This document shows, piece by piece, positions 11,066 to 63,340 of a stretch of 64,000 nucleotides of DNA (within the stretch, counting starts at the first letter, position 1; every line of letters starts with the position of its first letter). The stretch lies in assembly GCA_016748015.1 (NCBI GenBank), contig JAAOMT010000570.1, forward strand, positions 651,253 to 715,252, given 5' to 3'. The stretch is from Geosiphon pyriformis (lineage: Eukaryota > Glomeromycota > Glomeromycetes > Archaeosporales > Geosiphonaceae). A program made the position numbers and the translations under genes. Below the pieces are notes generated by a model. That model ran no database searches. It saw only the letters and a program-made list of their open reading frames with translations, and was not told the DNA's origin.

Positions 11066-11190
11066 AAAAAAATTTATTTTTTCTCTCTTACCTCCAAAAA
11101 ACTCCAATGAGCACTTTTCTAAGAAAAGAAGTTTTTTGTTTTTCTTGTTAATAATATATCAATATTTTTTTAACTAATAACCATTTCGTC

Positions 11191-13058
11191 ATGAATTTGG
11201 AGGCTGTTTCTAGTGGCGACATGTCTAGTAAGAAGGCTCTTAAAAGTGTGTTTCATGGTCCTGCTGGTGGTTTTTTTTCACAAAGAAAGAAGGCTTCTCT
11301 TGAAAATATTAAACACTCTGGTGATGAAAAGGATATTTTTTTGAAGTCTGGTTCTGGTGCTAGTGTATATTCTGATGTGGAGAGCCTATCTGATGATGAT
11401 GAAAATGTTAATATGTCTGGTGGTTTTGATGGTTCTCTTTTGAACTTGGCTGTTAATACTTCCAGGACTAAACGAGTGAATACTGGTGCAAATTTCAGTT
11501 CTCCTATTGGTTCTCCTGACTTTGAAATAGATGAAAAGGTGAAGCTCCTTCTGCCCTTCCTTAGGAAAAAAGTTCCTTTAAATAAGATTTGGATTGATCT
11601 CAAGATTATCAAAACTCTTGTAGAGATTTTGGTTAAGAAATCATTTACTTTAGACATCAATTTTTTGGCTGTGGAAAGGAAATCAGCTATGCAAAAAACT
11701 CAGTTCATCAGAAAAATTTTTCAAAAATCAATGGTTTTGGGGGGGCCACTACCCCCTCAAAATTTGAAGGAATCATCAGATCAACGTTTACATCAGAGGA
11801 AAGCATGAAGAAGGCCATTTTATTGGCTGGCAAAAATGTGATCAGTGTAAACAACAATCTTAGAAAACAAGAATTTCATTCAAATCAGGCCATAGTGATT
11901 AAGAAAATTCTCATGGACATGCCTAGGGATATGATTGTTACTACAGTTTCTGAGTTTGGGCAAATTAAGTCAATCAAAATTCAGTTAATTAGAATGTGGC
12001 AAAAAACTATGATGGAGTTTGCCAAATTGAATCAAACCAATCTGTTGGCCTCAAAATGGTTATTTCTGATTGGGAAGAATTCAGTATATGTTGCCAAAGC
12101 AGCAGAAGATCATGATATCTGGGCATTGAGAGATCAGTTCAGAGCGCTGTTGTTTACTTTGCCAGTGAGAATAACTGCACATAATCTTGGTACTCTTTTG
12201 GAAAAGACTGGCAAAAAAACTTGCATCATCAATTATTTATTGGAAACTGGCAATAGATTTTGTTGTGCTGTGATTAACTTTGAATCTGATGAAGAGTTGG
12301 AATCTGTTTTTTTCACTGAGCCTATTTTCGGTGAGGTGCATTTCTTATGGGCTAGGTTGAATTTGGTTCAGTGTGGGAAGTGTGGGCATTTTGGCCATTC
12401 TACTCTGAAGTGTAATGTATTGGTTGAGTCATCTTCTGGCCTCCCAAATTTGTTTAAGAAATCTGTTTCTGGTTTTGATTGTTTTCAGTTAGCCAAGTTG
12501 TATGCAAAAAAAAATGTTCCTATCTCTCACTCTACTGCCTTTGACAGAAAATTATGGGCTTAAGTAGTGTCTCTTGTCTTCTTTTCTGGTGGCTCCCCTT
12601 CTGGTTCTGGTTTGCTTTCTGGTAGTATGTCTCTCTCTTTTGGTTCTTCTGGTCTTCAGATCGATGGTTTGGGTGATCGTTTGGCAGTTTTGGAGCATTC
12701 TTTGGAAATTTTTTCAGATCAGGTTTCTGTTATTCTTAAGAAATTGAGTTTTGTTGATCTGGTGCCTTTGGCATCTACTTCTCATGCTCCTTCTATGACT
12801 GGTTCAGTGTCTTTAGCTCTAGTTGTGGACTTAGATATGGCTCTGGATGATATGTTAGCTCTGTCTGTTCCCTCTCTTTCTGGTAGTGATGAGTCTGCTG
12901 CTGGTCTTAGTTCGAGTGGTTTTAAGGTTCTTACCTCCAAAGTGGGTGGTTTGGAATCCAAATTGTCTGCTCTAAAAGCTTTGTTTGGTTCAATTCTAGC
13001 GAGATTGGATTTTTTGTGTTCTGGTTCAGGCTCATCCTTACTCCTTTCATCCCAATGA
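11191..13058 (+). pseudogene. LINE copy A ORF1 (gag-like, CCHC zinc knuckle), broken
   Basis: Nucleic-acid-binding ORF1 protein. It opens with MNLEAVSSGDMSSKKA; the Met at 11221 is the only early Met shared by copies A, B and C, so it may be the true start. A one-base deletion near 11720 relative to copy B (a TTTCA stretch where B has TTCTCA) shifts the frame, and reading resumes in the correct frame up to about 12560. The CCHC knuckle is intact: CGKCGHFGHSTLKC, spacing CX2CX4HX4C. An in-frame TAA at 12561-12563 replaces the Gln codon still present in copy C. Downstream is a Ser-rich linker and a short coiled-coil-like end (LTSKVGGLESKLSAL). The terminal TGA at 13056-13058 overlaps the ATG of ORF2. 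Confidence 0.85.
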
Positions 13059-16000
13059 GTGATTTAGTCTGGAAATTAACTATATGCAACGTTTGAAGTA
13101 TCAATGTTCCTGCAAAACAAACAGACATAATCCATTGACATATGAGTTCTGGAAATATGGTTTCTTTTGTTGCTAAGACAAAATTAAGGTCCTCTTCTGG
13201 ATCATGGATCAGGGACAAATTTGATGGAGTTCGGATTTTTACTTCTGGGTTGGATATTGGTTATCTTAGTGCTGGCATTGCTGTAATTATGAACAACTCT
13301 TTGGCTCACTATGTTTCTAGAGTTGAGAAGGTTCCTGGTCATTTGATTTCGATTTGGCTTTTGTTTAAAGGCAAGCTTTCGGTTACAATTTTGGGTTTGT
13401 ATACTGGTGCTTCTTCCGGGACTAGGTTTGCTCAGGCTCCTATAGTGAATTCTCTTATTGCTAAGGCTGTTAACTCCAGCACTTTTGTCATTTTGGGTGG
13501 TAATTTCAATGAGAATAATTCTGGGAGGAGTGCGAGTTTTAAGTTTTGTTTGGGTTTGGGTTTAGTCAATTTTTTTGCTGGACACTCTTTGATCAAAACA
13601 GCTACATGGAGCAATTCTAAGGGAGTGGAGAAAACAATTGATTTTATTCTTGTTAATAAAACTCTATCTTCTGCTGTTGTGAAACATTGTGTCAATTCTG
13701 TTTCTGATTTCTTTAATATGGATCACAAATCTGTCATGATATTGGTTGGTCTGGGTGGGCTCTTAGATATTTGGCTGAATGGTTTGCATAAGCAGACCAA
13801 CAAGAACTGTTGGAAGTTTAGGATCAAGGATGCTGATAGTACTGGGTGGTCCCGTTTTAAGGATTGTTCCTCTGCTAAGATGTTGAAGGTAAAGAGGAGG
13901 TTTCTTGGCACTGCTGCTGGTCTTGATTTGGAAGCTATGTGGTTTTTGCTGGAAAAGATGGTGGTGGATTCCACAGATGAAATATTTTTCAGACATTGGT
14001 TCTGTGATTTTCAGTACTCAAAAAATAAACATTCTTTTAAGTTCCTGGGTTTGGAGTTGCTGGTTGCCAAGATAGTCAAATGTCTGACCTCTGCTAATAC
14101 TTCTGGTTTCAATTGATTTGTAAAAAAATGGTCGGCTCTGGATGCTGGTAAAGCTCTCGTTCTGGAGAACATGATTTGTAGTGGCTAAAAAGTGGAAGAC
14201 CTTCTTAGTTATTTGTCACTCGTCAGAAAGGAGTACAGAAAATCTAAGATGTTTGAGTCAAAGTTACTGCAAGAGGCTACTATCAGAAAGGCTATTGAGA
14301 GACATATAGAATGATTTTGCTTGGACAAGAGAAGTATAATTAGGAGTGTTCTGGATTAGCCATTTTAAAAGGTGGTATTGGATCACTTGGTGGTTAATAA
14401 TAAGTTGATATTGGAGCTGAAGGAGGTTAGATCAAGTGTTGACAAGATTATAGAGGGTTGGACATGGAAGCGTGTGATGCCTATGGTGCTGCCTGATCTC
14501 TGGGCTTGTCAGTATACATCTTTGAATTATGTTAGAGATGATGCCTTTTCTAATATAATGAATGTGATTAGCATAGATGAATTGCTTTCGGTTACTAATG
14601 GTCTGCCTGATAACAAAGCTGCTGGCTTGTCTGGCATTCCCAATGAATTCTGGAAACATGGTTGTGATAAGATGTTGAAATGTCTTTTGGTGTTGCTGAA
14701 TGTGTACTTATCTGTTGGCATAGTGCCTGCTTTGTGGAAGAGGGCGTGGGTCTCAATGATCCCTAAGTCTTATGATTAGGATGGAGTTCTTACTAATACT
14801 CAATCTATTGCTTTGATTGAGACTGCCAGAAAGATTTTGTCTAAGATTTTATCTGATTGCATCTCTTTGGCTTGTAATAAGTTTGGTGTTTTCTGGGGTA
14901 ATAATTTTTCAGTGCTCTGTGGTACTTCTACATAATCTCCAGTGTTTGCAGTTAGTTTAGTTGTGGAGGATGCTCTTGAAAAGAATAAGAAAATTTGGTT
15001 GGTTTTGCAGGATATGCAGAAGATATATGATTCTGTTGGTTGGCCTCACTTAAAAGCTAGTCTGCAGTACATCAAAATGTGTGAGAGATTTATTGGGTTT
15101 TTTGGGAATATTCACGAAAATAGGGTTAACAGAGTGATGACTGATTTTGGCTTGTCAGATGGCTATAGTGTACATAATGAATTGGACCAGAGTAAAGTTT
15201 TTTCGCCTTTCTTATGGAGGATTTTCTATGATCCACTCTTATACAAAGTAAAACAACATGAGCATTTGTGCAGATACCGTGTTAATTCTAAGTTTGTTGC
15301 AAAGACGGGCAGAGTTGAGAGTGTGAATGGGATAACATCTTACTTGGCAGCTGGTGCATTTGTCAATGATACAATTTGGATTGGAAATTGTCAGGCCTCT
15401 ACTCAGTATGCTCTGAACATTGCCAGTGAGTTCTTCAAAATCAATGATATTTTTATTAATAATAATAAGACAGTGACTATTTCTATTAACCAAAGTGTTA
15501 GGATTGCCTCTCTGAGTATTTGTGGTCAGCCAATCTTGATTGCTAAAAAGGGCAAAGCTTATTGTTATCTGGATATCTTCTTGTCAACGGAAGGCTTGTC
15601 TAAACCTAATGTGTCCAAAGCTTATTCTGATGTTCGTTTTTTTGTTAACGTTGTGCTCAGAAAGGCTATCACAGATAAACAGTTCTCGTATTTGGTCTTG
15701 GCTGTCTTGTAGTCTATTGTTAGTTATTGAACTCAGTTTAGTTTTGTTTTATTTGGTGTTTGTCGCAAATGGGATGTTATGGTTAGAAAGAGTCTTAAGT
15801 CCAAAGCTGGTTTGTTTCATGATTTTCCAGATGCTGCCTTACATCACCTTTCTTTGTATGGCTTAAAGACTTTTGAACAGGTGCAATCTAAAGGGAAGAT
15901 TGCTGCTTTGGTAACCTTTTTTAATGCCTCTGGGGTCCTTGGGTGTTTGTTTAATTATAGGTTTTTAGACTTGCAGATTCTTGGCTGGGCTCTTCTGGAT

Positions 16001-17746
16001 TCTTTGCAGTTTCCTGTCAAGTTACGTGTTAGTCCAGTCAACAACTTTTTGGCTGGGATTGTGAAAATTTTTTTGAGTAATGAGCTTTCTTTGGCTAACA
16101 ACCTTCCCAATGCCTTTTGCAGTTCAGGTCATTTTCTACTTTCATTGATTCTAAGTAGTTCTGAGTATTTTAATTCTGTTCACTCTCTAAAGTGTTTTGA
16201 AGTTGCTTTTGGTGATCGGATTTTGGATAAGAGAGACCATGTACTAAATTGGAAGACCTTTTATTATTGGAAGAGATTGAACCCACAGGGCCCCATGCCT
16301 TACTGGTTTTCAGTCACATCTGAGTTTATGTTGGTTCAGGGCTTTTCTGCTTCCAGTTCTGCTGGTTTTGCTCAGTTTGTTGATACAAATATTTTAGATT
16401 CTGAAGTGTTTTCTCTGGTAAAAGATGGGTTGCATAATATCTGGTCTAGTTGCTTTGAAGTGTATACTGATAGATCTTTAAGAAATGCTGGCTTGGTTGA
16501 TGCTGCTTGTGGTGCTGCTGCATATTTTCTGGTTTTGGATAGAAGTGTTGGTGTTGTGATTGGTGGTCTACTGTTCTCTACTTTGACTGAGTTGCAGGCT
16601 GTTGTGTTGGCTCTTGAGTGTGTACCTTTCTCTTGTCAAGTGATTTTGCATACTGATAGCCAAGCTGCTATTAATGTCTGCTTGTCAGAGTTGTCTTGTA
16701 CCATGCCTGATTTTCATAATCAGTGCTGGTTGAAAAGACGCCATATTTTCAATTTGGTTAGGAAAAAGGATCTCGAAGTGGTCTGGGTTAAGGTTAAGAG
16801 CCATTCTGGTGTTTCAGGTAATGTCAAGGCTGATTTGGCGGCTGGGAATGCTACTTGATCTTTCTTCTCTTTGTTGACTAGAGTTCATGAACATTATTTG
16901 GTGGCTGAAAACACGGCAATCTCTGGCAATGCCTGCCATTTTGTAAGAGACATTTTTCAATCTATTAGTCATGCTCACTAAGAGGCTGAGCCTGGTGTGG
17001 GTGTGATATCTGTTGACCTTGTTGGGTGTGTAGACTGGATTTCTACCATGAAGGTTTGGCATCTGAACTTTTATATGCTCGCTAAATTCACTGGTCAGAA
17101 AACTTTGAATTTGTGCTTATATTTGATGAAAGCTGTGCACAGGTGTCTTCTGATAGCTGTTCAGAAAAAATTGTATAATAAGGGTTATCCTGGTGTGTTG
17201 TGTCTGCTGTGTGGTGAAGTGGAATTTTCTGACCATGTCTTCACGTGCCTTTGGGATGTTGTTATTCATAATAAGGTTCTGGTTAAGGCTTCTGCTCGTT
17301 GAATTTTGGTAGCGGGTCTTTGTGACTCGCTGTCTTCAGCTGTTTTGCAAACATTGTTTGCCTGTTCTCTGAATATAGGTTTGTATTTTATTATGTGTAA
17401 AGGCTTTATGCTGAATAAATGGTGCGAGGAAGCTTGGGGTGTATTTGAAAATAAGAAGCAGGCCATTGGTAAGGTTGTCAGTTTTGTTAGGTTTGTAGCT
17501 GATTTACATTATGTGAAGGCATGGTTAGTGAGATCTGAGCACAGAGTGCGGATGGAGAAAGCTGGTTTGGTTGCTGATGGTAAGATTGTTTCTGGTTTGT
17601 TTCGTGATGTTTCTTCTATATTGTCGGGTAGAATGGTTAGAATGCTTGGTGTGGTTGATTCATTCACTGTTAGCTTTGGTTGTCATTTGCCGTGCTGTTT
17701 TTTTTCTGGTCTAGGTGGTGTTGTTAGTGTCAATATAGGTGTGTAG
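13055..17746 (+). pseudogene. LINE copy A ORF2 (APE endonuclease-RT-RNase H), broken
   Basis: Retrotransposase polyprotein. APE region at 13055-13740: it starts at WKLTICNV, has LGGNFNEN and IDFILVN, and ends with the MDHKSV box; the catalytic Glu of the TETKL motif is Lys here (VAKTKL). RT region at about 14370-15720: PDNKAAGLSGIPNEFWKHG, the motif A equivalent DMQKIYDSVGW, and the catalytic box FVND at 15359-15370, where copy C has FVDD. RNase H at 16440-16860 keeps all four acidic positions (VYTDRS, TELQAV, HTDSQAA, VKADLAAG). A C-terminal finger follows (CLLCGEVEFSDHVFTC). Internal stops near 13095, 13128, 14116, 14777, 14934, 15710, 15728, 16857 and 16980 and further on are mostly explained by CGA, CAA/CAG or TGG transitions. 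Confidence 0.88.
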
Positions 17747-17755
17747 TGTTGTCTT

Positions 17756-17776
17756 GACTGGTCTGAGTGGCTAGTC
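17756..17776 (+). promoter_or_regulatory. 3-prime UTR hairpin of LINE copy A
   Basis: Arms GACTGGTC and GGCTAGTC pair over 8 bp (with G-U pairs) around a 5-base loop TGAGT, nine bases after the ORF2 stop. The same fold occurs at the same place in copies B and C and in the half-LINE, with compensatory changes. A likely role is recognition of the RNA by its own RT; this is inference. Confidence 0.6.
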
Positions 17777-17880
17777 ATATGTAGTAAGTATGTAAATTGC
17801 ATTTAGTTTGGGTTACTTAGTTTGACTCTATGTACTAGATAGCAGTTGGACTTCACTCAATAAAAGCAGGAAAAAAAAAA

Positions 17881-19375: not shown

Positions 19376-21496
19376 ATAACCACAACCAGAGCAAAAAGTA
19401 AAAAAGCTGCACCTGATATCTGTTCTGAGATATCTAATAAAATTTCAACCAGAGGAGCTTTTTCTGTTGTAGAAGCAACTAAGCAGAATGTTTTAGAAGC
19501 CTTTCTTTTACTCAGTAATCATAATAAGCTGCCTTTGGTAGTCACTGAAGCTACTTCCTCATCTTTGGCTGGTTTCTCATCAGTCAAAGTTCTCTTAAAA
19601 AGACACATTTGGGTTAGTTCCAGTATTGCCTCCACCCCAACTAAGAGCCCAAAAGTTTTTAATAATAGACCAGTTAACAAGCTGGTCTTCCTCTCCATAG
19701 CTTTTACATCTGATGCTGCTAACACCTCCTCTTCAAAAAAAATGGTCAAAAAGACCAAAAATTCAGAAAAGTAAGCAGTTGCTTGTCTCTGCTATTGTTA
19801 CACCAAACCTTTTTGTGGTTTCCAATAAGATCTTAAATGAGATCTTCATAATATCATTCGGCACATTGTCTAAGATAGGCCTAGATCAACCACTGGCTGT
19901 GTTGTCAAATGTGGTGTTTTCTAGTAAATCATTGCTGGTTTTAGAAGCAAAACAATTTCTTCCTGTTGGATCATCTGTTTTTGGGAACTGGACTGATCAA
20001 ATAGAAACTGAATCATCTCCTTTTCTAGTTTCTAGTGCTATTTCTGATAATGCTTGGAGAACTATTACTAGTCATCAAAGATTTGCTGGGTGGGTGGCCT
20101 CCACTCTGGTGCTTGGTGCTTGGTGCTACTTTTAAGATTAAATTGGCTTATGTTAAGACTGTTTTTTAGTTTTTTGGGTGCAAAGTCAGTATTAAAAGAC
20201 AATGTAAAGTTGTTTTATATGGAGTTTGCTTCTCAAGTGTTTTTAAAAGCTGTATTCTTGGTTGAGTTTACAAGCTCTGTACATTTGGCCACCCTTAAAA
20301 TTGCCAAGTCTTTGGTAGTTTCTGAGTCTGGTTCCCTTTCTGTTGCTGTTGCACTGCATGATGTGCCCTTAAGTGTGTTTGCTGCTGACATTAAGACAGC
20401 TCTCAATGTGTTTGGTAGTATCACTTGTGTTGTGCTGAAGCCTGTTGGCATTTGGCAATATGTAGTGGTTTATTTTAAAAAGTTGGACTCTACTGTGTCT
20501 GTTTTGAATTATTGGTCAGTTTTGGTGGGCAAAAATAGTGTTAGAATCCTCCTTCTGGTGAATCAAAATGAGACTATTTTGTCTCATGATAAGTTTAAAG
20601 CCAAGTTGGTCAATCTTCTTTCTGGATGCACAGCTTTTGAAATTAGTGATATGATTTCTTAAGTTGGTGGTCAAACATGTTTTATTCTTCATTCTTTCGA
20701 GTCTGGTCATTATTTTCAGTTTGCTCTGGTCATATTTGGTTCCCAAGCTGATTTGGACTCTGCTATTGTCAAAACTGATACATTGAGAAAATGCCATATT
20801 TGGTGGGAAACTTCTAGTTGTTGGCATTGTTTCAAGTGTCAAGAACTGGGTTATCTGACTGCAGACTGTAAGGTTTTTTTACCTTCCCCTCCCAAGTTTC
20901 CCAAGGTGTTCACACCATGTTTTGCTGGTCCTAAGTCTTATGTCAAAGCTTCTGCTCTTTTGGACTCCTCTGGATTTCTACTTTTATCACCTCTTGTTTT
21001 TTCTCCAGTTGTTGTTGGTAATTCTTTGGTACTATCTTAACTGTCTTTTTTGGAATCTGATTTGACTAAGCTTTCTGTTTTAGTTAAGTCTATTGTTAAG
21101 CCTATTGGCTTTCTGGTTACAATTTTTGAACAGTTTATTAATGATGATTTGGTTTCAAGTAGTGCTCTTGGTCTTAAGATCAATAAGGTTATGGTGCATA
21201 TGGGTTTTTTTAGTAGGACTGTTAGTAAGTTGGGGAGAGAAGTGGTTTCTTTAAAAAAGGAATATTGTATGGAGAACATTGATATGTCTGGTAATTCAGA
21301 GCTTCCACCTGTTGTAAGTAATAAGGTGTTTTCCAACTTAATGTCTCTTTGGGAGCATAAGTCTGTTGATGTTAAAAATGATCTCTTTAAAACTGCCAAG
21401 TGGCTAGTTGGTTTGGTTTCTTGCAGTGTAACTTTGTTTTCTGTTATTCAAAAAATGTTATCTTTGGGTAAGTTTTTTTTTATAGCATCAATATAG
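19376..21496 (+). pseudogene. ORF1-like CCHC protein of the half-LINE, broken
   Basis: Reads from TTRAKSKKAAPDI; the codon before it (19376-19378) is ATA where ATG would be expected. One frameshift near 19770, others near 20140, and TAA stops near 20660 and 21039 break it into at least five pieces. The second half is clearly homologous to the LINE ORF1: LVGKNSVRI matches FLIGKNSVHV, and VGGQTCFI matches AGGKTCVI. The knuckle reads CFKCQELGYLTADC, with Tyr where the ligand His should be (CAT to TAT). The C-terminal part (SLKKEYCMENIDMSGN) is not shared with the full-length LINE ORF1. Distant resemblance to abundant Rhizophagus zinc-knuckle proteins is from memory. Confidence 0.75.
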
Positions 21497-21505
21497 TGTG
21501 TTTTT

Positions 21506-23460: not shown

Positions 23461-23510
<50 letters not shown>
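23461..23510 (-). repeat. (AAT)n microsatellite tail of LINE copy B
   Basis: About 17 uninterrupted trinucleotide units directly abut the 3-prime end of copy B. Copies A and C have A-rich tails instead, so this is a tail variant or an expansion within one. Confidence 0.85.
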
Positions 23511-23513
<3 letters not shown>

Positions 23514-23593
23514 AGTGAGGTCCACACACAACCTAGCACTATACATCAAAGAAATGATCTAAACTAGACATGAATCATGCACTTTCTACATAT

Positions 23594-23614
23594 GACCAGC
23601 CACTCGGGCCAATC
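23594..23614 (-). promoter_or_regulatory. 3-prime UTR hairpin of LINE copy B
   Basis: On the minus strand, arms GATTGGCC and GGCTGGTC with loop CGAGT, at the same distance from the ORF2 stop as in the other copies. Confidence 0.6.
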
Positions 23615-23623
23615 AAAACAACA

Positions 23624-40240: not shown

Positions 40241-40383
40241 ATTTTCTCTATCTTTAAAAAATAAGCTTCTGTGAATTGTTAAATTTTTCTTTTTTTTTAA
40301 AAAAAATTGAAGTCTTCTGAGATATTTAAAGATCATTAAAATGTTCATAGTTGTTTTTATATTGACAATAAGAGACACTATAT

Positions 40384-48946: not shown

Positions 48947-49129
48947 GGTTGAAGAAGTCGAAGGATTAAAGATTACGAAAATGAATTTTAAGTAGAGTGA
49001 TTATTTATACGCCTCAGAAAGATTTCAGGGGTTCAAAACTGCTTAGCGCCACAGATTTGTCTTACCCCCATTTTTTCTTTAAGTGCCAAATTAATTAAAA
49101 GCGAAGGCACCAAAAATCAGTCCAAAAAA

Positions 49130-49797
49130 TTTTTTTTTTGTCTGAGCAGTGTCTGCATTAGCCCAATCTAAACGAGAAAGCAAAGGATCCGATAATTTTT
49201 CGGTTTCGTGGATAGAGGTAGTAGCTAGAAGAATAAATTTCGATAAATCTACTTCTCCATTAAATAGTTTATCTTTTGCCGACTATCAAATACTGGTAAC
49301 AAAGATTCTTCTAAGGCTTGGTTCTGGCCCAATTTTTTCAATATTTTTAAAACAAATAATTGGGAATTCCCCAGCTTTAATAAATTCTTTATTTTTGGAA
49401 TCATTATAAATCTCTTTAATTTTTTTCAATAAACTTTGGGTTTTCGTATTAAATTAATTTGATCTTTTACCTCGACTAATTCTTGATTATGCTCTTCCCC
49501 CATTAATAAATTAACCCGAGAAAAGTCTTTGATTTTTGGATTCTTTTCTCGAGTTCTTTGGTCATCTAATTCTTTTAAATCAACAGCATCTTTTAAGTTG
49601 TGGCCAATTTTTCTTTTGTAACTACAGCAGCAAAAAAATTAATGTAGGCTAAGTCTATTTCTTCATTGAAATAATGATCAATAAATCTTTCTTCATTTTT
49701 AATATTTTTATTAATTACTTGTTCTAATTCATTCAGAAAAATAATAGGATTTTTGCATCCAGTCTCAATTAACATCTTATCAAATATCACAATTTAA
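49130..49797 (-). pseudogene. Lon-like AAA+ protease/ATPase fragment, frameshifted
   Basis: Reading down the minus strand: FDKMLIETGCKNPIIFLNEL matches the Lon segment that leads into Walker B (KNP...LLDEID), with the Walker B Asp changed to Asn. Then come DHYFNEEIDLAYINFFA, equivalent to DHYL...DLS.V.FI.TAN, and a hydrophilic linker. After it lies a second, similar unit: FIKAGEFPIICFKNIEKIG, VDLSKFILLATTS and SDPLLSRLD, a sensor and arginine-finger-like region. At least four frame changes, near 49590, 49435, 49340 and 49280, break it. Walker A and the Ser-Lys protease domain are absent. Composition is AT-rich but codon-like. A bacterial origin is possible because AM fungi host Mollicutes-related bacteria, but no search was run. 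Confidence 0.6.
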
Positions 49798-50204
49798 CAA
49801 AAACTTCAACAATGTTTCAATAAAATAAACAATTAATACTCTTTTATTTATAAATATTTTCACATTAAAAAAACACTTAAAACCCAAATTTGAAGCAACA
49901 AATCTTATTTTAAAAGTTATATATACAATAAATTCAAGACAACAACTAAACCAACAAATACTTATTACAAATTAAAGCAGCTTTAAGATTCTATAACTTA
50001 TTTAATACTAGTAAAAATAATTTACAAAATCTGATATTACAATCATTGAAAATTCAATATATTAAAAAGCTTACAAAAATAAAATTTTAATAATTTCAAA
50101 CCAAATTACTTCAATAATTTTATTTTTAATTAATATATATATTATTAATTTACATTTTATTATTTATTATTTAACCAAATTATTAATTATTATTTAATTA
50201 AAAA
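49798..50204. other. AT-rich spacer
   Basis: AT-rich DNA between the Lon-like fragment and the 5-prime end of LINE copy C. No feature was seen. Confidence 0.6.
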
Positions 50205-50352
50205 AACTTTTTTTTCTTTTACATCCACAAATTCTTAAAAAGCACTTTTCTGAAAAAGAAGTTTTTTTTTTATTTTTTTTTGTTAGTATCTCACAATTTC
50301 TCTTTCTAATAATCCCTTTTTTGTGAACTTGAAGGCTGCTTCTAGTGACAAC

Positions 50353-52203
50353 ATGTCTAAAAAAAAGGCACCAAAGGGTGTTTTTCATGGTCCTGCAAAT
50401 GGCTTCTTTTTACAGAAAAAGAAAGTTGTGCTTGAGAATATTAAACACTTGGGTAATGAAAAAAATATCTCTTTAAACAAGTCTGAGTTTGGTGACAATG
50501 TGTTTTCTGGTGTGAATAGTCTGTTTGGTGATAAAAAAGGTGCTAATATAACTGGTATTAATGTTGGGTCTCTTTTAAATTCAGCTGTTAATACTTTTAA
50601 AACAAAGCATGTTAATACTGGTGCTGTTTTTGGTTCTTCACTTAGTTCTTCCAACTTTGATATAGATGATAATGAAAAAGTCTTTCTTTCTTTTTACCTC
50701 TCAATCTCTCTGAATAAAAAGTGGGTTGACCCCAAAATTGTCAAGACTCAGGTAGAGGTCTTAATTAAGAAGTCATTTGCTTTGAACATTAATCTCTCAG
50801 CTGTGGAAAGAAAATCAGTAATGGCAAAAACTCAACTCATCAAAAATTTTTTTTCAACAGTCAATGGTTTTAGGGGAGCCACTACTCCCTTAAAGTTTGA
50901 AGAGATTATTAGATCTATGTTTATTTCAGAGGAAAGCATAAAAAAAGCCACTTTATTGGCCAGAAAGAAAGAGATTATCATAAATAGTGATCTTAAAAAA
51001 CAAGGAATCCATTCAGATTAGGCTGTGGTAATTAAAAAAATTCTCATGAACATGCCTAAAGACATGATCATTACTGTAGTATCCAAATTTAAGAAAATTA
51101 AGTTAATCAAAATTCAATTAGTTAGAATGTGGCAAAAGACTGTAGTGAAGTTTGCTGATTTAAATTAAGCTAATCTGTTGGTCTCAAAATGGTCATTCTT
51201 GATTGGAAAAAATTCTGTGTGCATAATCAAAGCTGTAGGAAATTGTAAGATTTGGGCATCTAGGGATCAGTTCAAGATACTGTTGTTTATTTTGTCTGTA
51301 AGTATAACAGCACATGATTTTGAAACTCTTTTAGAAGAGGCTGGTGAAAAAACTTGCATTATAAACAGATCTATAGAAACTGGTAATAAGATTCACTATG
51401 CTGTGATTGGTTTTGACTCCAATAATAATCTGAAATCTGCTTTTCGCACAAAGCCAATTTTTGGTGGTATTAAACTTTCTTGGGCAAGGATGGATCTGGT
51501 TTGGTGTAAGAAATATGGGAGGTTTAGTTATTCTACTTTGGAATATGATGCATCAGTTGCATTTATTTTTAGGCTTTTAAAAACATTTAAAAGAGTTGTA
51601 TCTGATAAATGTTGTCTTCAGTTGGCAAAGTTGTATAAGAAGAAGAGTGTTCCAATATCTTGCTCTGCTGCCTTTAGTGGCAAATCTTGGGCCCAGATGA
51701 TCTCACTTATTGGTTTTTTTGATGGTTTTCGATTTACTCTTGGTTTTGGTTTCTTTTTCTCTAGTGCCTCAGATTTGAATAGTGGTTTTTCTCCTGTTTT
51801 GGCTGACAACTCATCTTTAGATGCTCAGTTGGCATCTTTGAAATGATCCTTAGAGCTATTAACTGACCAAGTTTTTGACATTGTACATAAGCTTAGCAAC
51901 ATAAAATTGGTGTCACAAGTTTCATCTCTCTCCTCTAAAGCCTTGGCTTCTTTGATTGCCACCAAAAAGAATTTAACTTTGGATATAATTGTGAACAGTC
52001 CTGAGTTGGTACTTTTACCCATCTCTTCTGCTTCTTTTAAAGTTTCAACTTTGGGTCTGAGTAGTTCAAAAGTCTTAACGACCAAGATTAGCAGTTTGAA
52101 ATCTAAGTTGGTGGTTTTTAAGGCCTCTGTTGGTTCAGTTTTGGCAAAGTTAGATCATTTATGTGCTGGTTTGGGTCTTTTGTTATCCTTTTCATCTCAA
52201 TGA
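50353..52203 (+). pseudogene. LINE copy C ORF1, broken
   Basis: Starts at the conserved Met at 50353 (MSKKKAPKGVFHGP); the frame is open from about 50323. CAG to TAG near 51019 and CAA to TAA near 51166 break it. Every change in the zinc knuckle is a transition: CKKYGRFSYSTLEYD has Tyr at two Cys positions and at the His. At the codon where copies A and B have TAA this copy keeps CAG (SWAQMIS). The terminal TGA at 52201-52203 overlaps the ATG of ORF2. Confidence 0.85.
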
Positions 52204-55200
52204 ATGGTTTGATCTAGAAAATAGCTACATGTAATGTTCAAGACATTAATGTTTCTGCCAAGCAGAAAGATGTTGTTTGTTGGTATAAGGATATGAGCAA
52301 CTTGATTTTGATCATTACTAAGACTAAATTGAAGGGTAAAGTTTGTTTGTGGATTGCTGGCAAGTTTGAAGATATCTGTGTGTTTACTTTTGGTTTGAAT
52401 TCTGAATATTTGGATGCCAGTATTGTGGTTGTCATAGACTCTTCTTTGGCAAAACATGTGTACAAGGTTTCTGAAGTGCCTGGTTAGCTTCTATTTATTA
52501 GATTGCTTTTCAAAAATAAACTTTCTGTGTTAGTCTTAGGACTGTATACTGGTGCCTTATCTGTGGTTCAGTTTTTGCAAACTAGAGAAGTCAACTCTCT
52601 TATTACAAAGACTGTTAACGAATCTTTTTTTATCATTTTTGGTGGTAACTTCAATGAAAACAGTTTGCAAAAAAGTGCTAGTTTTAAAAAATGTATTAGT
52701 TTGGGGCTGGCCAATTCTTTGATGAATAGTTTGGTCATGAAAAGTTCTACATAGAAGAATTCAAGGAGTATGGAAAAAACAATTGATTATGTATTGGTTT
52801 CATCAAATTTAGTCAGTGCAATAGTAGATTACAATGTCATGAACATTAGTAATTACTTTAATACTGATCATTAAGCTGTTTCTGTGTTAATAGATCTGAG
52901 CAGTTTGTTAAACACTCAGTTGAACTTTCTTCACAAATAGGCAAATAAAGATTGCTGAAAGTTTGATTTTAAGGGTGCTGATACTGCAAAATAGGACAAG
53001 TTTAAAGATGCTATGGCAGCCAATGTTACCATGTTCTCTGATAATTTTTTTATCTCTGTGCAATTCTCGAATTTGGATACAATATAAGATGCAGTTTGTA
53101 AGATTATAACACTATTAGTTAATGAAATATTTAAGAAGAATTGGTTTAAGGGTTTTGATAGTATTTTTACCAAAGAATCTTCTAGATTTCATAAGCTGAA
53201 GCTTTTGGTCTTGAAAATTGCTAAAGCTTTTTGTGAAAAGAATGTTAATAGGTTTGCTTTCTTTATGGAATGCTGGGATTTTTTGGACAATATTAGGGCT
53301 TTGATTGTACAGAATATGATGCTCTCTGGTGCAAATTTTGTTCATGTATGTTCGGCTCTTTTTAGTGCACAAAAGTCATATTATGCTTCCAAGCTTGCTA
53401 AGTCTTTGTGAGCTAAGAAGTCAAGTATAAGATTGGCTATTGATAGATAGATGGAGAGTTTTGCAGTCAATAAAAGTCACACAATCAGAAGTGTGCTAGA
53501 GCATCCTTTTTGTAAGGTGGTTTTAGACTATTTAATAGTTGAGAATGAACTGATTCTGAAACTTGACCTAGTTAAAGCCAAGGTTAACATTATTATGGAA
53601 GGCTGAACCAGAAAGCATAATGTGGTAAAAGATTTTTTCAATGATTGGTCTTGTCAATATTGGCCTTTGGAATATATTTTTAATGATGCTTTTTCAAATG
53701 TGATGTGTTTAATTAGTATTAATAAGTTACTTGGAGTGGTTTCTAATCTGCTTGATGGCAAAGCTATTGGTTTGTTTGGGGTGTCAAATAAGCTATAAAA
53801 GCATTGCAACAGATCAGTTTTGGATATGCTTTTGGTGCTTTTGAACTTTTGTTTGTCTTATGAGTCAGTATCTAGTACTTGAAAAGAAGCTTGGATCTCA
53901 ATGATTTCAAAACCATATAAGTGAAAGGGAGTTTTTATGAACACTTGACCTATTGCTTTGATTAAGACTGCCTGTAAAATTCTTTCCAAAATTTTCTTGA
54001 ACAGAATTTTTTTGGCATGCAGCACTTTTGATGTCTTACATGAAAACAATTTCTTGGTTCTAAAGGGTATAATAATGCAATCTCCCATTTTTGCTATTGG
54101 TTTGATTATTGAGGATGTTTTGGAAAAGAACCATGAACTCTGGCTGGTCTTGCAAGACATGTGAAAAACTTATGACTCTGTTAGATAGGAGCATCTTAGA
54201 AACAGTTTGGTTAGAATAAAAATGTGTGACAAGTTCATTAGATTTTTTGGTAACATTCACAATAGTCGTGTTAATAGAATAATAACAGATTTTGGTTTGA
54301 CGAGTAAATATCAGGTACATGATGGTTTGGATTAGGAGAAGATGTTCTCACCATTTCTTTGGTGCATATTTTATGATTCTTTTTTGTGTGAAGTCAAGAG
54401 ACAAAAAAGTATATATGAATATAGGCTGAATTCTTATTATGTTACTAAGACTGGTTATTTAAAAGCTTAAGCTGAGTTGACATCTTTTTTTGCTGCTGGT
54501 GCTTTTGTTGATGACACAATCTGGATTGGTAGCAGCCAAATTGCAACTTAACACATTCTTAATGTTGTTAGTGAATTTTTTCAGATCAATAACATTTTTA
54601 TTAATAATGACAAAACTGTGGCAATTCTCATTAATTGCAGAGTTGTATGTTCTAATTTGTCTATTAGTGGTTTGTCTATATCCATTGTCAAGAAAGGAGA
54701 GTCTCATTACTACCTAGGAATTTTTTGTCAACTGAGGATTTATCAAAGTCTAGTTTGGCTAAAGCTAATTCTGATGTCAGATTTTTTACCAATTTGGTTC
54801 TAAGGAAGACCATTTTTGATAAACAGTTTTCATATTTGGTATTGGCAGTTCTCCACCCCATTGTCAATTACAGAACACAGTTCAGTTTTGTTTCTATCAG
54901 TGTGTGTAATAAGTGGAATTTTTTAATTTGCAAGTGCTTAAAACTAAAGTTCAGTCTGTTTCTTGATTTTTCTAATAATGCACTTTGTTATCTTTTATTG
55001 TATGATTTAAAAACTTTTAAGCAAGTTCAAACTGAAAGCAAAATTGCTTCCATTGTATGCTTTGTGAACTCTGTTGGGATTTTGGGTCAGTTGTTTTTGC
55101 ACAGGTTTTATGATTTACAAGTTCTGTTTTGGAGTCCACTTTACTTTTTGGTCTTTCCAGCTTATATTAAAGTCAATGCTTTTGATAATTTTTTGGCAGA

Positions 55201-56885
55201 TGTGGTTCATATTTTTCATGGGTGCAGTCTGTTTCTAGGTGGTCATGTAAACAACTTTTTCCATTTTTGTGGTGGAACTTCTATGTTATCTGTTCTTGGC
55301 AGAACTGACTATTTTAAGTTTCTTTCATCTCTTTGATGATACAGTATTGCTTTTGTTAAACAGCTTTGCAATAAAAATGGAGCAGTTTTTGATTAGAAGA
55401 CATTCAGGCATTGGAAAAAGCTGGACCCATGTGGCCCTATTCCTGATTGGTTTAGGCTTTCTGTTGACTTTCTCAATAGTATAGCTTCTTTTCCTGCCTG
55501 TTTTTCTTCAATGGGAATTATTGAACCTTTGGACATTCTGGAATCTAATGAGTTTGGTTTGATTTATGATCAGTTGCTGAGTCTTGAGATTAACAGCCTT
55601 TCTGTCTATATGGATGAATCTCTGAAAGACTTGGGGAGCATTAACATGAAAGCTGGTGCTGTGGTTTTTTTTAAGGATATAAGCTTGGGTTTGAGAGTCA
55701 GAGTTTTTGGTCTGATGTCTTCTACTTTGGCTAAATTGCAGGTCATCACATTGGTTTTTGAGTGTGTTCCTCCTCTTAGTTCAATTAGTGTCTTTATGGA
55801 CAGTTAGGCTGTCTTGGATACATACAAATCAGAGTTAGATCTAGTTCATCCAGATTTTTGGAATTGCTGTTGGGTCAAGCATTAGCACATTGTAAACATT
55901 ATTAGGAAAAAGGATTTAAATATTAACTGGCACAAAGTAAAAGATTATTCAGGTGTTATAGATAATAAATGTGTTAATACACTTACTGATATGGCTTTTT
56001 TTTTATTCTGGTGTCTTCTTTCTTGTGTGGAAGAATGTTATATTTTAGCTGAAGGTAATATTATTTTTGGTAATTTTAGACACTTTGTTTATGAGATCTT
56101 TTGGTCTATTCATCATGCATACTGGGAGGTTAGTTCAGATTCCAGGGTTTTGGATAATAGTCTGTGCTTGGATGTTAATTGGCTTAGCTCATTATTGGTG
56201 TAGCATCCAAACTTGCACATGACTGCTGGCTTTACTAGTAAATCTATGGCTTGTACTTACACATATTTTATGAAAGCTTTATACCATCAACTGCCAATTG
56301 CTGTTCAGAAGTGCCTGTATGACAAATGTTACCCCAGTGTGTTGTGTTTATATTGTGATGAGATAGAGATTTCTGATCATACTTTTTCTTGTGTGGTTAA
56401 TAATTCTGTTTGTTATTGCTTGTTAGATGCTTATGTTACTGCTTGAGATGCACTCTCTGGTCTCCATCTCTTCTTTAAGTGTTTTTCAATTACTGTCTTT
56501 CTGTATTTCAAATGTTGCAATTTAAACAGCTTTTTGTAAAGGCTTTGTTTTTAAAGAGTGGATTTGGAAAGCTACATTTGTCTTCAGTGGTTCCAAGATA
56601 ACTGGTCAGAAGATTATGGAATTTGTGTGTAACTTATGTCTTGCTTTTAGGAATAAGGTTTGGTTGGTTTGTGCTAAGTATCATGCCTATATGGAAAAGA
56701 ATGAGATGATATTGCATAATGGTTCAGCTCTGGTTTTAGTTTCTGGGCTGTTTGTAGTGCTTTCTATAAGTGTAGTTAAATTGCTGAGTATTGTTGAGAC
56801 TATTGGTATTGGTTTTGGGTTTCATAGGTCTTATTTGTTTTTCTCAAGCATTAAAGACTCAGTCTCTGTACATATAGGTGCCTAA
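52200..56885 (+). pseudogene. LINE copy C ORF2 (APE-RT-RNase H), broken
   Basis: APE: TKTKLKGK (catalytic Glu changed to Lys), FGGNFNEN, IDYVLVSS, FNTDH followed by a stop. RT: LDGKAIGLFGVSNKL, LVLQDM then a stop where copy A has Gln, KTYDSV, and an intact catalytic box FVDD at 54504-54515. A one-base deletion near 54720 (GIFCQLRI in place of GIFLSTED) shifts the frame. RNase H: VYMDES, AKLQ (Glu changed to Lys), FMDS then stop. C-terminal finger CLYCDEIEISDHTFSC is intact. More than twenty stops, nearly all at positions where A or B has Trp, Gln or Arg. Confidence 0.88.
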
Positions 56886-56894
56886 AGTGGTCCT

Positions 56895-56915
56895 GATTGG
56901 CTCAAGTGGCTGGTC
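56895..56915 (+). promoter_or_regulatory. 3-prime UTR hairpin of LINE copy C
   Basis: Arms GATTGGCT and GGCTGGTC, loop CAAGT, beginning ten bases after the ORF2 stop. Confidence 0.6.
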
Positions 56916-58712
56916 GCATGTAGAAAATGCATAATTCATGCCTAATTTAGATCAGTTATTTGATGTATTATATTAGGTAGTGTTTGGACCTCACTCGTAA
57001 AATATATATAAAAAATTTAATTAATAATTTAATTTGTATAATACATATGTATAATTATGCAATATTTCAAATTTTATAATATTAAAAAAATCTTAATTTA
57101 ATAAAATACTTATTAATTTATAAGATATACAGTTAATTTTTAAAATATCAACAAAAAAATATGCTAAAACTCAAAATAATACTATAATTAAATATATAAA
57201 AAAAAGTTTTTCTTTTTAAATAAATATATTTTTAAATTAATATAATTTTTTTTAATTTTTTTAATTTTTTAATAGTACATTCCAATTACTATCTAATACA
57301 AAAAAACAAATTAAAAGTTTTTAATTAAATATAATTTATGTATTTTCTATATATAACTAGTTATTTGAACCAATTAAGACTATATTATACACTTATATAA
57401 ATTACAACATCAATATTTAAGCCAGAAAAAAACAAATATAATCTATAAAAACCAAAACCAACTGCAAATGTTTTATTAATTTTAAGCAAATAAACAATAT
57501 TACTTAACAACTAAAATAATACAAAGTGCAATAATATTAAAACCATTTTTATATTATTTATCAAGTTATTGTTTTTCATATTTATTCTGAATTTAAATCT
57601 AAAATTTCAAATTACTATTCTATAATATTCAATAAATTTGCAAATAAACTTAACTATTATTAAACCTATTTTTTTCTTATTTTTAAACATTACTACTGCT
57701 TTTTTAAACCATTTTTTCAAAATAAAACTCTTATTAATAATTTCATATAAACCAATATCAACTAAACTTGACAAAAAATTTTGAATAATTATTGATATCT
57801 AAAAAGCACTAAATTCAACCAAAAACTGTTAACAAAAAATTATTTTTTGTATTATATTTTTATGTAAACCAGTATTATTTAGACAAATAAAAACATAATC
57901 AAAAAATTTTATCTTATTATACATTAAACACAAAACACCAAAGTAAAATCTGTTATAAAGTTTTTTTTTAATAGCAATTAATAATTTTTTATAAACTGTT
58001 TTTATAAGATAAATATACAAATTTAAAGATATTTTATTAATAAATTTAGTATATATATGGAAATTTAAATACTAAACTAAAATTATATGTAATCAATCAA
58101 TACAGTAAACAAAAAATCCAGTTACAATAACTGTATTAAAATCTGTTTTTTAGTTGATCTAATTAACTAATCTATAAACTTTATGTATAAAATAGTAAAT
58201 ATTACCTAATACTGTTTGATTATTAGTTAAAATAAATCTCTTTTAAATGTAATATTTAAGAAATAAACATAAATAAGCAACAATATTAGCAAACATATCT
58301 ACTTTATTATTGCTTATATTTTTTAAATAGTTTTTAATCTTTATTTACTTAACTAAAATATTTTTATTTCTAATTAAGTTAACAATATGTTTTTGTTTCA
58401 ATCAACAAATACTGCAAAAATCTAAATATTGTAAATTCAAATCTGAGGTATACATATTAATTACAATTTGGCTGTTTAAGTATATAATTATTATATAAAA
58501 TAAAAAAACATATTTTAAAGCCAAAGTAATTATCTGCAATTCAGTCATTATTAATAATATTAGATTTTGAATTTTTACTTTAATATCTATATTAATATTT
58601 GAAAAATAAACTGCTGTTTTATAAATTATAGATAAAAAACCCATATTTTTTAAAGATTTATTAATATAAACAGCAAAACTTCCAAATTAAATTTAATATT
58701 AATAATCATAAA

Positions 58713-59333
58713 CAGTGTTACCGGAGGTTTTTGGTCTCTTTTCTTAAATGTTGTCAATGCTTGTTTGCTGTGAATTCACGTTTTCTGGATGTGGTTGAAC
58801 CTCTAGTAACTGAATTTATCTTCAAATTATCTCCTATAATTTAAACTGCTGGACTTATAAGTAGAATGGCCAATTCTGTGCCAGTTGCTTTATGTAGTTA
58901 CGTTGTAGTAAACATCAACTCTTTCCCAGGAAATGCTTGTCTGGAAGCTCACTAAAAAATGTGTAGTTACTTTGCTGTGAAAGTCAACTCTTCTACAGGA
59001 ATCTCGTCTGTAGACTACTTTAATGATTATAGTAAGAAAATAAAAAGAAAATAAAAAAAATGTAAAAGAAATAGAATTCTGTCAAGAGAAACGTTTTCTA
59101 TCCAGGCCTGGAGTTACTAACAGTTTACTGAAATTAGTAGCTAATCAATTTTGAAATGTTAGTTGGGTTTTGGGGATTTTCCAAGTGCAATAATTAAAGA
59201 ACTTGGTTTTTCAAATTATTTGATATTTATTTCTTTTTGTGTATATAGGAATGGTTCTAAGTAATAAATCTAAAGTAAGATATATTTTCTTGAAGAGAGA
59301 AGCTCTTTTTTTATACAACTTGTCGTAACACTA
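58713..59333. mobile_element. TIR-bounded insertion inside LINE copy D (possible MITE)
   Basis: LINE RNase H homology stops at 58712. The sequence from CAGTGTTACCGGAGG to CGTAACACTA has matching inverted ends (CAGTGTTAC against TAGTGTTAC read from the right). Base composition is clearly less AT-rich than the surrounding LINE relic, so the insertion is younger than the decay. The end resembles those of the 1.4 kb repeats (CACTGTTACC). LINE homology resumes only near 59687, so the right boundary is unsure; no convincing target-site duplication was found. No coding region. Confidence 0.45.
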
Positions 59334-59365
59334 TTCTATGAACTTGAACTTTGCTATTTTCTACA

Positions 59366-59486
59366 ATTTTGCTGAACTAAAGATACATTTTGGCAAACTA
59401 CAAGTTATTTCTGCGAACTATTAGATATTTCGGTGAACTATCAATTATTTCAGCTAATTTATACAAATTTCGGCAAACTTTTGAAT
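59366..59486. repeat. 20-base tandem array, six units
   Basis: Six consecutive units with an almost exact 20-base period (first unit 21), consensus ATTTCGGYGAACTATYARWT. It lies in the same less AT-rich insertion within LINE copy D, directly right of the TIR-bounded segment. It may be subterminal repeats of a larger DNA transposon. Confidence 0.75.
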
Positions 59487-62400
59487 GTTATATAGTTCGG
59501 GGTATTGCATGTTTGATCATCGCAATTAGGTTACATTTGTGTTGTGTACAATTTGGGTTATTAATTAAATGATAATTTCGGACATTTTTTGCTAATGTAA
59601 TAAGTAATAATTTGAAATGATAATATATGCTAATTAATGATAGGAATTATAAGATAATTTCATGCTAAATAATATCTCTAATTTTGTCTGATAACAACAG
59701 CCACAAAATTATTAGAATTTAAGACACTAAAAGAATCACAAATAGAAAACATGTATAAAGAGCCAGAATAAAAATTAGCCATAAATCTGGAAAATAACTT
59801 AAACCAATAAAAAACTGAATTCTTTGAATTCAATTTTTTCTAACAATAAAATATTTTTTAATTCATAACTACCTTATGTTTATCCAGGAATTTGTTATCA
59901 AAAACTATGCCAAATTGTCTTAAAAAATTAATTATACCAAAATAACAAAAATTTCCTAAAATAGCTAACATAAAAAATTTGTTATATTTATAAAAAGCAC
60001 TAAGTAAATTATTAGTTAAAAATATTTTATTATCCAAAAAATTTTTTATTATGTTTACAAAAAAATTGTTTACTGGATTAATCTTTAGTTTTACAAAAAA
60101 TTATAAAAAATTCAAAAATACTTGCCTCAAAATTTGCAAATTCAAGAATTAATAATCAAATAATTATTACTAACAGCATTAAAAAAAGTAATTACTAAGA
60201 CAGTTTTATTCTTTGCTTATAATTGTTTAAAAAACTTCAGTTTATACAAAGATAAATAGTACAAAAATTCACTAAAAAAGTTTTTAGGCAAATTAGTTTT
60301 GATCTTGAATCCCTTTCTCAACAAAGCATTCTATTTGTAATATATGTTTTTTAAAATAAAACCAAACTGAGTTCTATAATTAATAATTGGCTATAGTATT
60401 GTTAATATTAAATAAAAAAATTGTTTATTTATTAAAGTCTTTCTTAAAACCATATTGGAAAAAAATATAATATCTGAATATGCTTTGACCAAATTTGGCT
60501 TAAACAGATCTTTAGTTAACAGAAAGATTTTCAGATATCTGTGTAGTTTATTTTTATATACTATTATAATTAGTATCTTATTAATAAACAAAAAAGCAAC
60601 TTTAATCTTTTGATTAATTAGAATAGCTATTGTTTTCTTATTGTTAATTAAAACATTATTAATAGAAAAAAAATTGCTAAGAATGTCTAAAATATATTGT
60701 GTAGATATATAACTGTTCTTTATCTAAATAATATTATCAACAAAAACTCTAATTACAAGAAAAAATGTTCTGTTTAAATTGGCTTTTACTTTTCCTAATT
60801 TGGTAATAAACTTTAAATTAATATAATATTTACACAAATATTTCTGTCTTTTAACTTTGCACAAAAAAAAATTGTAAAATATTCTTTAAAGCAAAGATAA
60901 AAAAACTTTATTTTAATCCAATTTATTATGCATTTTATATTCATTTGAAAGTTCAAAATCTGTCATCATCTTATTAATTTTATTTATATACAGATTGCCA
61001 AAATATTTAATAAAGTTCTTGTATATTTTTATTTGTCTTAAACTCTATTACAGATAAATTTAGTTAACAAAATTATAAACTTTACACATATCTTGTAATA
61101 TTAGCTATAACTCTTTATCCTTTTTTAAAATATTTTTAATAATTAAATTTACTATAAAAATAAGATTCTAAATAAAAGTGCTCTTAAGCACAAAGAAATT
61201 GTCTCCATAAAACATACCAAAATCACTACAAGCAGAAAAGATATAATTCAAAAAAATTTTTAACAGAATTTTTATTATTATTTCAATTAAAACAATAAAT
61301 CTGGCATTTGTTAACACCCTTTTTTAATTATATGACTTTAAAATTATAGAAACCCAAAATTTTTTTCAAGATCCAAGAATATACTTTAAAACCAAGCAAC
61401 TATTTAACAAATTTAAAAGACATTTTAAAACATTATTACTATAATACTTTTACAATTTATTTAAAATATCAGAAAGACTAATAGCTTTATTATTAAAAAA
61501 ATAGCCAATTATTTGCTTTAATTTCTAAACTTAATTTTTTTTATAATCTTAGAAAATATACTATTATTTACATAATTCAAAAGCATATATTGATATAACT
61601 AAAGACCAAACATTTTTTTATTTGGTCTTTTATAATACTGTTTATTTTATTTTTTATTTTCTTTGACTTCAGAATCAACTTATCATTTATTATTAAATAA
61701 TTCAGCACTATTTTTTAAAAAAGTTATTTTAAACTATTTTTTATTATACAGTCTTTGTTTGTATAAAAGTTTTCTATTTTTTTATTAATGGTTTTCTTAA
61801 TAACTAATATTTTAGTAACTTTAAATTCATAAAACTTAGATTGGTAATAATTTTCTTTAGTTTTAAATAAATAATCAAGAACCATCTTAGACTTTACTTT
61901 ATATTTAATTAAAAACTAAATATTATAAGCTTTAATAGCATTAATTTTCAACCAAATCTTTATAAAATATTTAAAATTAAGAGTATTTTTAGAGACAAAA
62001 ATCTTGACAATCTTAGAAACCAATATTTTCAACCTAAAAAATTTTGAAGATTGTTTGTTCTTTAAAATATTAAACTTATTGAACTAATATTTAGAAAAAA
62101 TTTTATTTGTAGAATCTATTATTATTTTATCCAAACACTTTTATATTATGTTTAAATTATTTTGTTTTTTTGTATCTTAAAAATTGTGTTGAATTGAGCA
62201 TATATTCAAAAATGAACAGTTTTTAAATTATGTTTATTTTAACATATCAGCATTTTTTATTCCAAACTTCTAATAATTATAATTAGTTTGTTTGTGCAAA
62301 GCATTTAAATAAACATTTAAAAAACTACTTAAACTAAGAAATATTAACATAATCTTGTATTTAATATTAAAAAACTCAGATATATTAAAAATTTTACAAC

Positions 62401-63340
62401 TAATAATAATTAACAGAAAGTATTTATTAACAAAAATGTAATTAATAATCTTCTTAACACTTCTTGAATTGCTTTATGTTGGTGTTTTGGCTGCAAAATC
62501 TCCAAAAAATAAATTATGTAAACTCAAATTAAAACACTTCTTAATACTAGTACTTTTTCTCATATTATTTTTATTAAAATTATCTTCAAGTATTATATAA
62601 GAACCAAAACTAATTGTTTTAATAATAAAAAAGTTTATTTCACTAGTCTAACCAAAATATATACTTGTTAAAACACCAGTATAAATCTCTAAAATAATAA
62701 TTAACAGACTATTATTAAATAAAAAATAAATTGACAAAAAACAACTTAAAATCTTTAACACTTTGCTTACATATTGAGCAAGTATATTATTTATTATTAT
62801 TACAATATTTAAATTCAAGTAGCCAGAATTCAAACCAGATACAAAAACTTTCAAACCAGAAAATCTGTTTTTTATCTATAACTTGTGTTGTTTTTTTAGC
62901 TTTGTCTTAGTTATAAAGAAAATTAAATTTTTAGAATTTCTATGACACTTAACAATATCTTTTTATTTAACTAAATTTTTCATATCTTTAATATTACATA
63001 TAGCAAACTTTCAAACTAACTTATTTATTAAAATACAAAAAACAACAAAAAATTTAAACCAGAACACAACTGATTTAATTTTATCAGGATTAAATTAACC
63101 AAAACTTACAAGACAACCAACTTTGATTTCAAACTTTTTATCTTAATTGTAAAAATTTTTAATGCACTTGTATTTGGAATTAACTTTTTATTAATCATTA
63201 ATATAAAAAAAGAGAAAGTTTTATGTAAATTATTTATAACCAAATCTGAATTCAAAATCAGACCAAAACTTAATAATACTATTAAAAAAAATAAAGACAT
63301 AACAAGTATTTGAAAAGCCAGAACTAACTCTTTTAACTTA

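Follow-up and report, generated by a model that had tools for sequence, protein, structure and literature searches.

The DNA analysed here, a window of 64,000 nucleotides from the genome of Geosiphon pyriformis (contig JAAOMT010000570.1, positions 651,253 to 715,252), contains four long interspersed nuclear element (LINE) sequences, A to D, a further LINE relic, a high-copy repeat that is not a LINE, a HUWE1-type gene and a second island of genic type (Table 1). A preliminary description of the window had pointed to C-to-T and G-to-A decay in the LINE sequences. Here, we follow this decay through the copies of these elements in the 124.7-Mb, 406-contig assembly that contains the window and compare it with what the genes of the same genome display.

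Table 1. Features of the window, with position, strand and supporting observations (CpG o/e, observed-to-expected ratio of CpG; ORF, open reading frame; aa, amino acid)
Feature	Position	Strand	Observations
HUWE1-type gene (Pfam DUF913, DUF908), control without decay	1..9800	-	CpG o/e 0.66-1.2
LINE A: RRM-like ORF1; endonuclease, reverse transcriptase and RNase H pieces	11066..17870	+	at least 20 close copies at 85-90%; 3' end read from the sequence
LINE ORF1-like relic, within 19.4-21.6 kb	20354..20971	+	tblastn, 27-32% aa identity to ORF1 of A, B and C; CpG o/e 0.06
LINE B: family distinct from A	23480..30440	-	at least 33 close copies at 85-89%; CpG o/e 0.22
High-copy 1.4-kb non-LINE repeat, 3 copies	38843..43875		transition excess also here
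Second CpG-normal, genic-type island, control	47001..49500		CpG o/e 0.7-1.3
LINE C: third family, heavier dose (~1/3 of C/G lost)	50073..57028	+	copies at 77-84%
D: old relic of another LINE family, GC 16-28%	57388..64000	-	tblastn with the A, B and C ORFs; composition

LINE A retains, in decayed form, the endonuclease, reverse transcriptase and RNase H that make up the domain set of an RNase H-type LINE; RRM_1 and RNase_H score above the Pfam cut-off, and Exo_endo_phos_2 and RVT_1, i.e. endonuclease and reverse transcriptase, below it. A to D had been taken for a graded series of one LINE family with rising AT content, a premise that our data contradict. In the window self-comparison, identity among A, B and C is no higher than 63-72%, with an ordinary transition:transversion ratio of 1.6-2.5, and the genome contains a separate set of copies of each of them at 80-90% identity overall (the copy numbers of A, B and C are lower bounds, with 40 candidates scored of ~2500-2850). 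D matches the ORFs of A, B and C in tblastn at mostly 28-47% amino acid identity (E down to 7e-72). Thus, there are four separate families, and the supposed series compares different families. The rise in AT content across A, B and C, with a CpG o/e of 0.20 in A and of 0.05 in C (GC 0.325), reflects a differing dose per family, because the inferred starting sequences of all three have ~48% GC; in C, the dose of C>T is 0.25-0.55 depending on context. The 3' ends of B and C (at about 23490 and 57000) are alike, reading GGACCTCACTC followed by an A/T-rich tail, and a related GGACTTCACTC is present in A. A genome search for the fungal type I fatty acid synthase acyl carrier protein domain gave no match, which agrees with Glomeromycotina but is a weak test; similar LINE proteins in that group point the same way. 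The assembly gave no exact match to the AML2 primer site of 18S rDNA, an uninformative result since rDNA may be absent from it. The mutational findings hold irrespective of the lineage, although their novelty depends on it.

In total, 69 copies were aligned: for family A, 17 copies over 4.07 kb without gaps; for B, 27 copies over 4.02 kb; for C, 14 copies over 1.2 kb; and, for a younger family, Y, that was chosen independently of the LINEs of the window, 11 copies over 480 bp. The results for C and Y thus refer to short stretches and, since the ~80 copies sampled were the best-scoring ones, copies at either extreme of age are under-represented. The families contain subfamilies that differ by transversions and, therefore, the comparison within subfamilies is the clean test of the spectrum. 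Within five subfamilies, the pooled counts are 6299 for C>T, 143 for T>C and 123 for transversions, which puts the pace of cytosine loss tens of times above that of any other mutation. Single comparisons are equally one-sided: LINE A of the window and its nearest copy (L010) differ by 456 transitions and 5 transversions over 4.07 kb, and another pair of copies (L073/L080) by 151 transitions and 1 transversion. In the alignment of family A, 1598 columns show a transition, compared with 78 that show a two-state transversion. Preferring C in polarising C/T columns inflates C>T, although majority polarisation retains the direction in A (3622 C>T vs 665 A>G). In family Y, in which the derived T is nearly always the minority state, we count 147 C>T, 0 T>C and 3 transversions. 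Both strands are affected at similar rates in every copy examined, so that the decay of both DNA strands noted in the preliminary description holds for all of these copies. The 1.4-kb non-LINE repeat (331 candidate places genome-wide) behaves alike, with 134 transitions and 6 transversions between rep1 and rep2. In the window, two copies of this repeat are in direct orientation and the third is inverted, and genome-wide the repeat often forms tandem pairs ~1.55 kb apart. A different repeat of ~1 kb is present at 18281-19293 and 36238-37238; these two copies are 82% identical, with 100 transitions and 12 transversions across the first 0.67 kb, and arrays with a 10-bp register (18959-19287 and 36941-37249) each adjoin this common repeat.

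The same substitutions account for the damage to the reading frames. When C or G is preferred at all variable columns, the frames of A, B and C reopen fully (0 stops in 1399, 1407 and 403 codons, respectively), while individual copies carry 2-20 stops each and the aligned copies of LINE B have gained 4-18 stops each. These stops originate from TGG, CAG, CGA, CGG and CAA codons, in agreement with the earlier remark that other copies have CAA, CAG, CGA or TGG where one copy has a stop. The three codon positions of A are almost equally affected (0.144/0.131/0.155). Genome-wide, 72 of the best 150 RVT_1 matches are stop-free, and intact young LINE families exist in this genome. The stops elsewhere among these 150 matches are mostly TGA (79 TGA, 22 TAG and 16 TAA), a pattern that decay of CpG or of TGG would give.

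The context in which cytosines are lost is broad and led by CpG. The inferred starting sequences have a GC content of 0.48 and a CpG o/e of 0.68-0.76 in A, B and C; in Y, the starting CpG o/e is 0.99. The fraction of CpG cytosines lost is 0.44 in A, 0.38 in B, 0.57 in C and 0.21 in Y, compared with 0.12, 0.11, 0.26 and 0.03, respectively, for CpA; CpC and CpT are intermediate or similar. In other words, all contexts are affected, CpG is lost 2-6 times more than the remainder (in Y, 0.21 vs 0.039 elsewhere) and CpA is usually the least-hit context. The losses outside CpG favour a 5' pyrimidine (T, C > A, G) in all four families (p = 2.5e-38, 3e-33, 4e-18 and 6e-4 in A, B, C and Y, respectively). 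At CpG losses, there is no effect of the 5' base in any of the four families (p = 0.23-0.91) and hence none of the TpCpG preference of the basidiomycete RIP-like type (RIP, repeat-induced point mutation). Among the surviving cytosines of AT-rich intergenic DNA, those after G are enriched 1.6-2.3-fold in four of the five stretches examined, and those after T are reduced to 0.6-0.8-fold in all five, which is broadly what the 5' pyrimidine preference of the non-CpG losses predicts; the surviving cytosines of genes lack this bias. RIP indices (product >0.89, substrate <1.03) flagged none of the 69 copies.

The hits along the copies are independent of each other at all distances. We detected neither positive autocorrelation nor strand coordination, and no strand tracts or clusters in the copies; the lone signal is the negative one between strands at <10 bp that CpG leads one to expect. 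A same-strand excess at 1-10 bp is absent and, thus, there is no sign of tandem CC>TT changes or of clustered hits. Such gradual, independent single hits are expected of 5-methylcytosine deamination. The dose per copy varies in A no more than by sampling (standard deviation 15.3 vs 14.8 expected), is more variable in B and C, and forms a continuum in Y (6-21 hits per 480 bp). Expressed relative to transversions, the hazard in the five subfamilies is 240-513 at CpG and 52-105 outside CpG, both hazards increase together across subfamilies, and the dose scales with the transversion clock. By comparison, a pair of gene paralogs gives a hazard ratio of roughly 7, a rough and unpolarised value. A single synchronous pulse for all copies is, therefore, unlikely, given that the dose rises in step with transversions in the five subfamilies and that Y shows gradation, even if family A, taken by itself, is homogeneous; a clock fits the tempo better than one pulse.

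The genes are spared. The CpG o/e is ~0.9 in genes (0.89 in the HUWE1-type gene and ~0.9 in the island at 47-49.5 kb) vs 0.05-0.22 in LINEs A to C, which bears out the earlier observation that nearby genes lack this decay. Outside genes, CpG o/e is mostly 0-0.3, the edges are sharp, e.g. at ~10 kb at the HUWE1-type gene, and the intergenic DNA across the window has 12-16% GC. Because the edges are sharp and the 1.4-kb repeat is affected as well, the process concerns the non-genic compartment rather than one LINE family. CpG-biased C>T and CpG depletion are thus both confined to this compartment, which we take to be the methylated one, as expected for 5-methylcytosine deamination. As a gene control, we took a single pair of duplicated DNMT-like genes to represent the neutral spectrum; the two are 93% identical over 1.1 kb and lie 32 kb apart on one contig (C318). 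One member lacks a detected BAH domain (L001/L003, 788 kb), and the other is a degenerate, partly deleted paralog on the opposite strand (L005, 820 kb). The two differ by 52 transitions, 21 transversions and 5 indels, with no clear asymmetry between C>T and T>C (32 vs 20). Measured by transversions, the age of this pair is several times that of the LINE insertions, but the transition excess of the LINEs is missing from it (52:21 vs 6442:123 for pooled C>T plus T>C against transversions within the LINE subfamilies, Fisher p about 1e-18; for median pairs, 2e-9 to 3e-3). Transitions in the repeats hence exceed the neutral spectrum as this pair represents it, and the decay claimed in the preliminary description, which was to be abandoned if they did not, withstands the comparison.

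The genome encodes cytosine DNA methyltransferases, which are among the homologues that the preliminary description had named as worth looking for: there are PF00145 matches (DNMT-like exons), DNMT1-like PDB matches and BAH domains, although PDB searches with the BAH-bearing DNMTs yielded no placement. The sole match to the uracil-DNA-glycosylase family in the genome is a fragment of the TDG/Mug type (GINPG; L093, C282:250360-250581); the genome search gave no match for UNG, a search that introns limit. With a TDG/Mug-type fragment present, loss of T:G repair was rejected as the cause.

Based on these data, we suggest that the decay probably results from cytosine-methylation-dependent deamination in the non-genic compartment, with a weaker non-CpG component that favours a 5' pyrimidine. 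In this model, which is built from sequence comparisons, inserted LINE copies and other repeats would enter a non-genic, presumably cytosine-methylated compartment, in which cytosines turn to thymine singly and on both strands. CpG would decay quickest, as expected for 5-methylcytosine deamination, and other cytosines more slowly and preferentially after a pyrimidine. The decay would run clock-like beside rare transversions, ORFs would die through their TGG, CAG, CGA and CGG codons, and non-genic DNA would be pushed towards the observed 12-16% GC, while genes, including the duplicated one, would escape. Methylation would then be the cause, its reach may extend to non-CpG sites, and the deamination that follows would be spontaneous rather than enzymatic. 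We favour this reading because of the strong CpG bias, the depletion in non-genic DNA only, the DNMT genes and the finding that in Rhizophagus irregularis transposable elements are highly CpG-methylated and most genes are not (PMC8647823). The non-CpG component may reflect either non-CpG methylation of the DIM-2 type or a second process.

Several points weigh against methylation-dependent deamination. The rate ratios lie above those of mammalian CpG decay, methylation outside CpG or a further process would be needed for the non-CpG hits, and we know of no established methylation counterpart for the 5' pyrimidine preference. T:G repair is not simply missing, given the TDG/Mug-type fragment; the gene control consists of one duplicate pair of 1.1 kb; and the polarisation inflates C>T, even if majority polarisation keeps the direction in A. 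Moreover, 5-methylcytosine in Neurospora was judged to add nothing substantial to spontaneous mutation (PMC10234303).

The preliminary description had offered RIP or methyl-cytosine deamination, the latter as the plainer explanation; deamination is the alternative that we favour as well, while classical RIP is not supported and the one-family premise was wrong. As in classical RIP in Neurospora, C-to-T and G-to-A make up almost all changes, both strands are hit and the repeats are thereby inactivated. Here, however, CpG leads and CpA is not preferred, the indices are negative in 69/69 copies, the hits form no tracts and the one gene duplicate compared is spared. A RIP-like defence, in which repeats would be recognised and mutated enzymatically from C to T under a context rule other than CpA in many weak rounds, is unlikely, and it is kept as a candidate because the tests by age-scaling and by genes address it only indirectly. 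RIP loses its target below some limit of identity, and the pairwise identities in our hit sets (82-89%) are near that limit; a spectrum of nearly nothing but C>T on either strand, with transversions all but absent, would also fit such a defence, and arbuscular mycorrhizal fungi are reported to encode RID in addition to DNMT1, DNMT2, DNMT5 and DIM-2 (PMC8298701). Yet CpA is usually the lowest context, the dose is graded and proportional to transversions without tracts or strand coordination, the 93% identical gene duplicate, with more transversions per base than the LINEs, shows 52:21, and a kingdom-wide screen saw RIP-like signatures in ascomycetes only (PMC12543289). That an active, context-broad, repeat-directed C-to-T mutagenesis operates here as a mitotic or cryptic-sexual analogue of RIP outside Dikarya, missed by CpA-based screens, we regard as rather improbable.

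We have little confidence that two processes are superimposed, deamination of methylated CpG and a separate heterochromatic process that acts on non-CpG cytosines with preference for a 5' pyrimidine (e.g. through a cytidine deaminase or through dipyrimidine lesions that are repaired poorly). This preference is restricted to non-CpG sites in all four families, as two processes would predict; the missing same-strand excess at 1-10 bp and the joint climb of the CpG and non-CpG hazards argue against them. Ordinary AT-biased mutation acting genome-wide and untargeted over a long time could produce intergenic DNA as GC-poor as that throughout the window but is very unlikely, since the T>C and transversion counts mark the copies as young, genes keep their CpG, and the gene paralogs have a different spectrum. 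Least credible of all is APOBEC-like editing of LINE cDNA during retrotransposition. Some deaminases favour a 5' T or C, which recalls the preference described here, but such editing is contradicted by the equal hits on both strands of every copy, and neither the absence of strand runs nor the equally affected non-LINE repeat fits it.

Methylation-dependent deamination has counterparts in other systems. In the methylated transposons of vertebrates, plants and many fungi, 5-methylcytosine deamination is likewise CpG-biased, acts on both strands of a transposon or non-genic compartment and is gradual; here, by contrast, cytosines outside CpG are also lost at a level far exceeding background and preferentially after a pyrimidine, the C>T:transversion ratio is very high and methylation is presumed. 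CpG-biased C-to-T in transposons also characterizes the RIP-like hypermutation of Basidiomycota, for which both RIP and methylation are under debate as the mechanism (Microbotryum, PMC4469406; Rhizoctonia solani AG8, PMC4014442), but G. pyriformis belongs to another lineage, has no TpCpG bias and, unlike R. solani AG8, spares its genes. Finally, Zymoseptoria tritici has Dim2-dependent mitotic mutation, a non-meiotic C-to-T pressure on methylated repeats with >95% C>T; there, >98% of C>T is at CpA and not at CpG (PMC8016269), while here CpG leads.

Transposons abound in the genomes of mycorrhizal fungi, which earlier work scored as being without RIP (PMC8647823, citing Venice 2020; PMC12543289). 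In G. pyriformis, all examined copies are C-to-T hypermutated although CpA indices are silent and, thus, the absence of RIP by index does not equal the absence of C-to-T hypermutation; CpA-based screens overlook decay of this kind. In LINE A, ~10% of bases have changed while transversions reached ~0.1%. Because transposon divergence here is mainly loss of cytosines, divergence-based ages of transposon bursts would be far too old. The process suggested here would also explain in simple terms why non-genic DNA is so extremely AT-rich, and it yields a testable claim on non-CpG methylation in these fungi.

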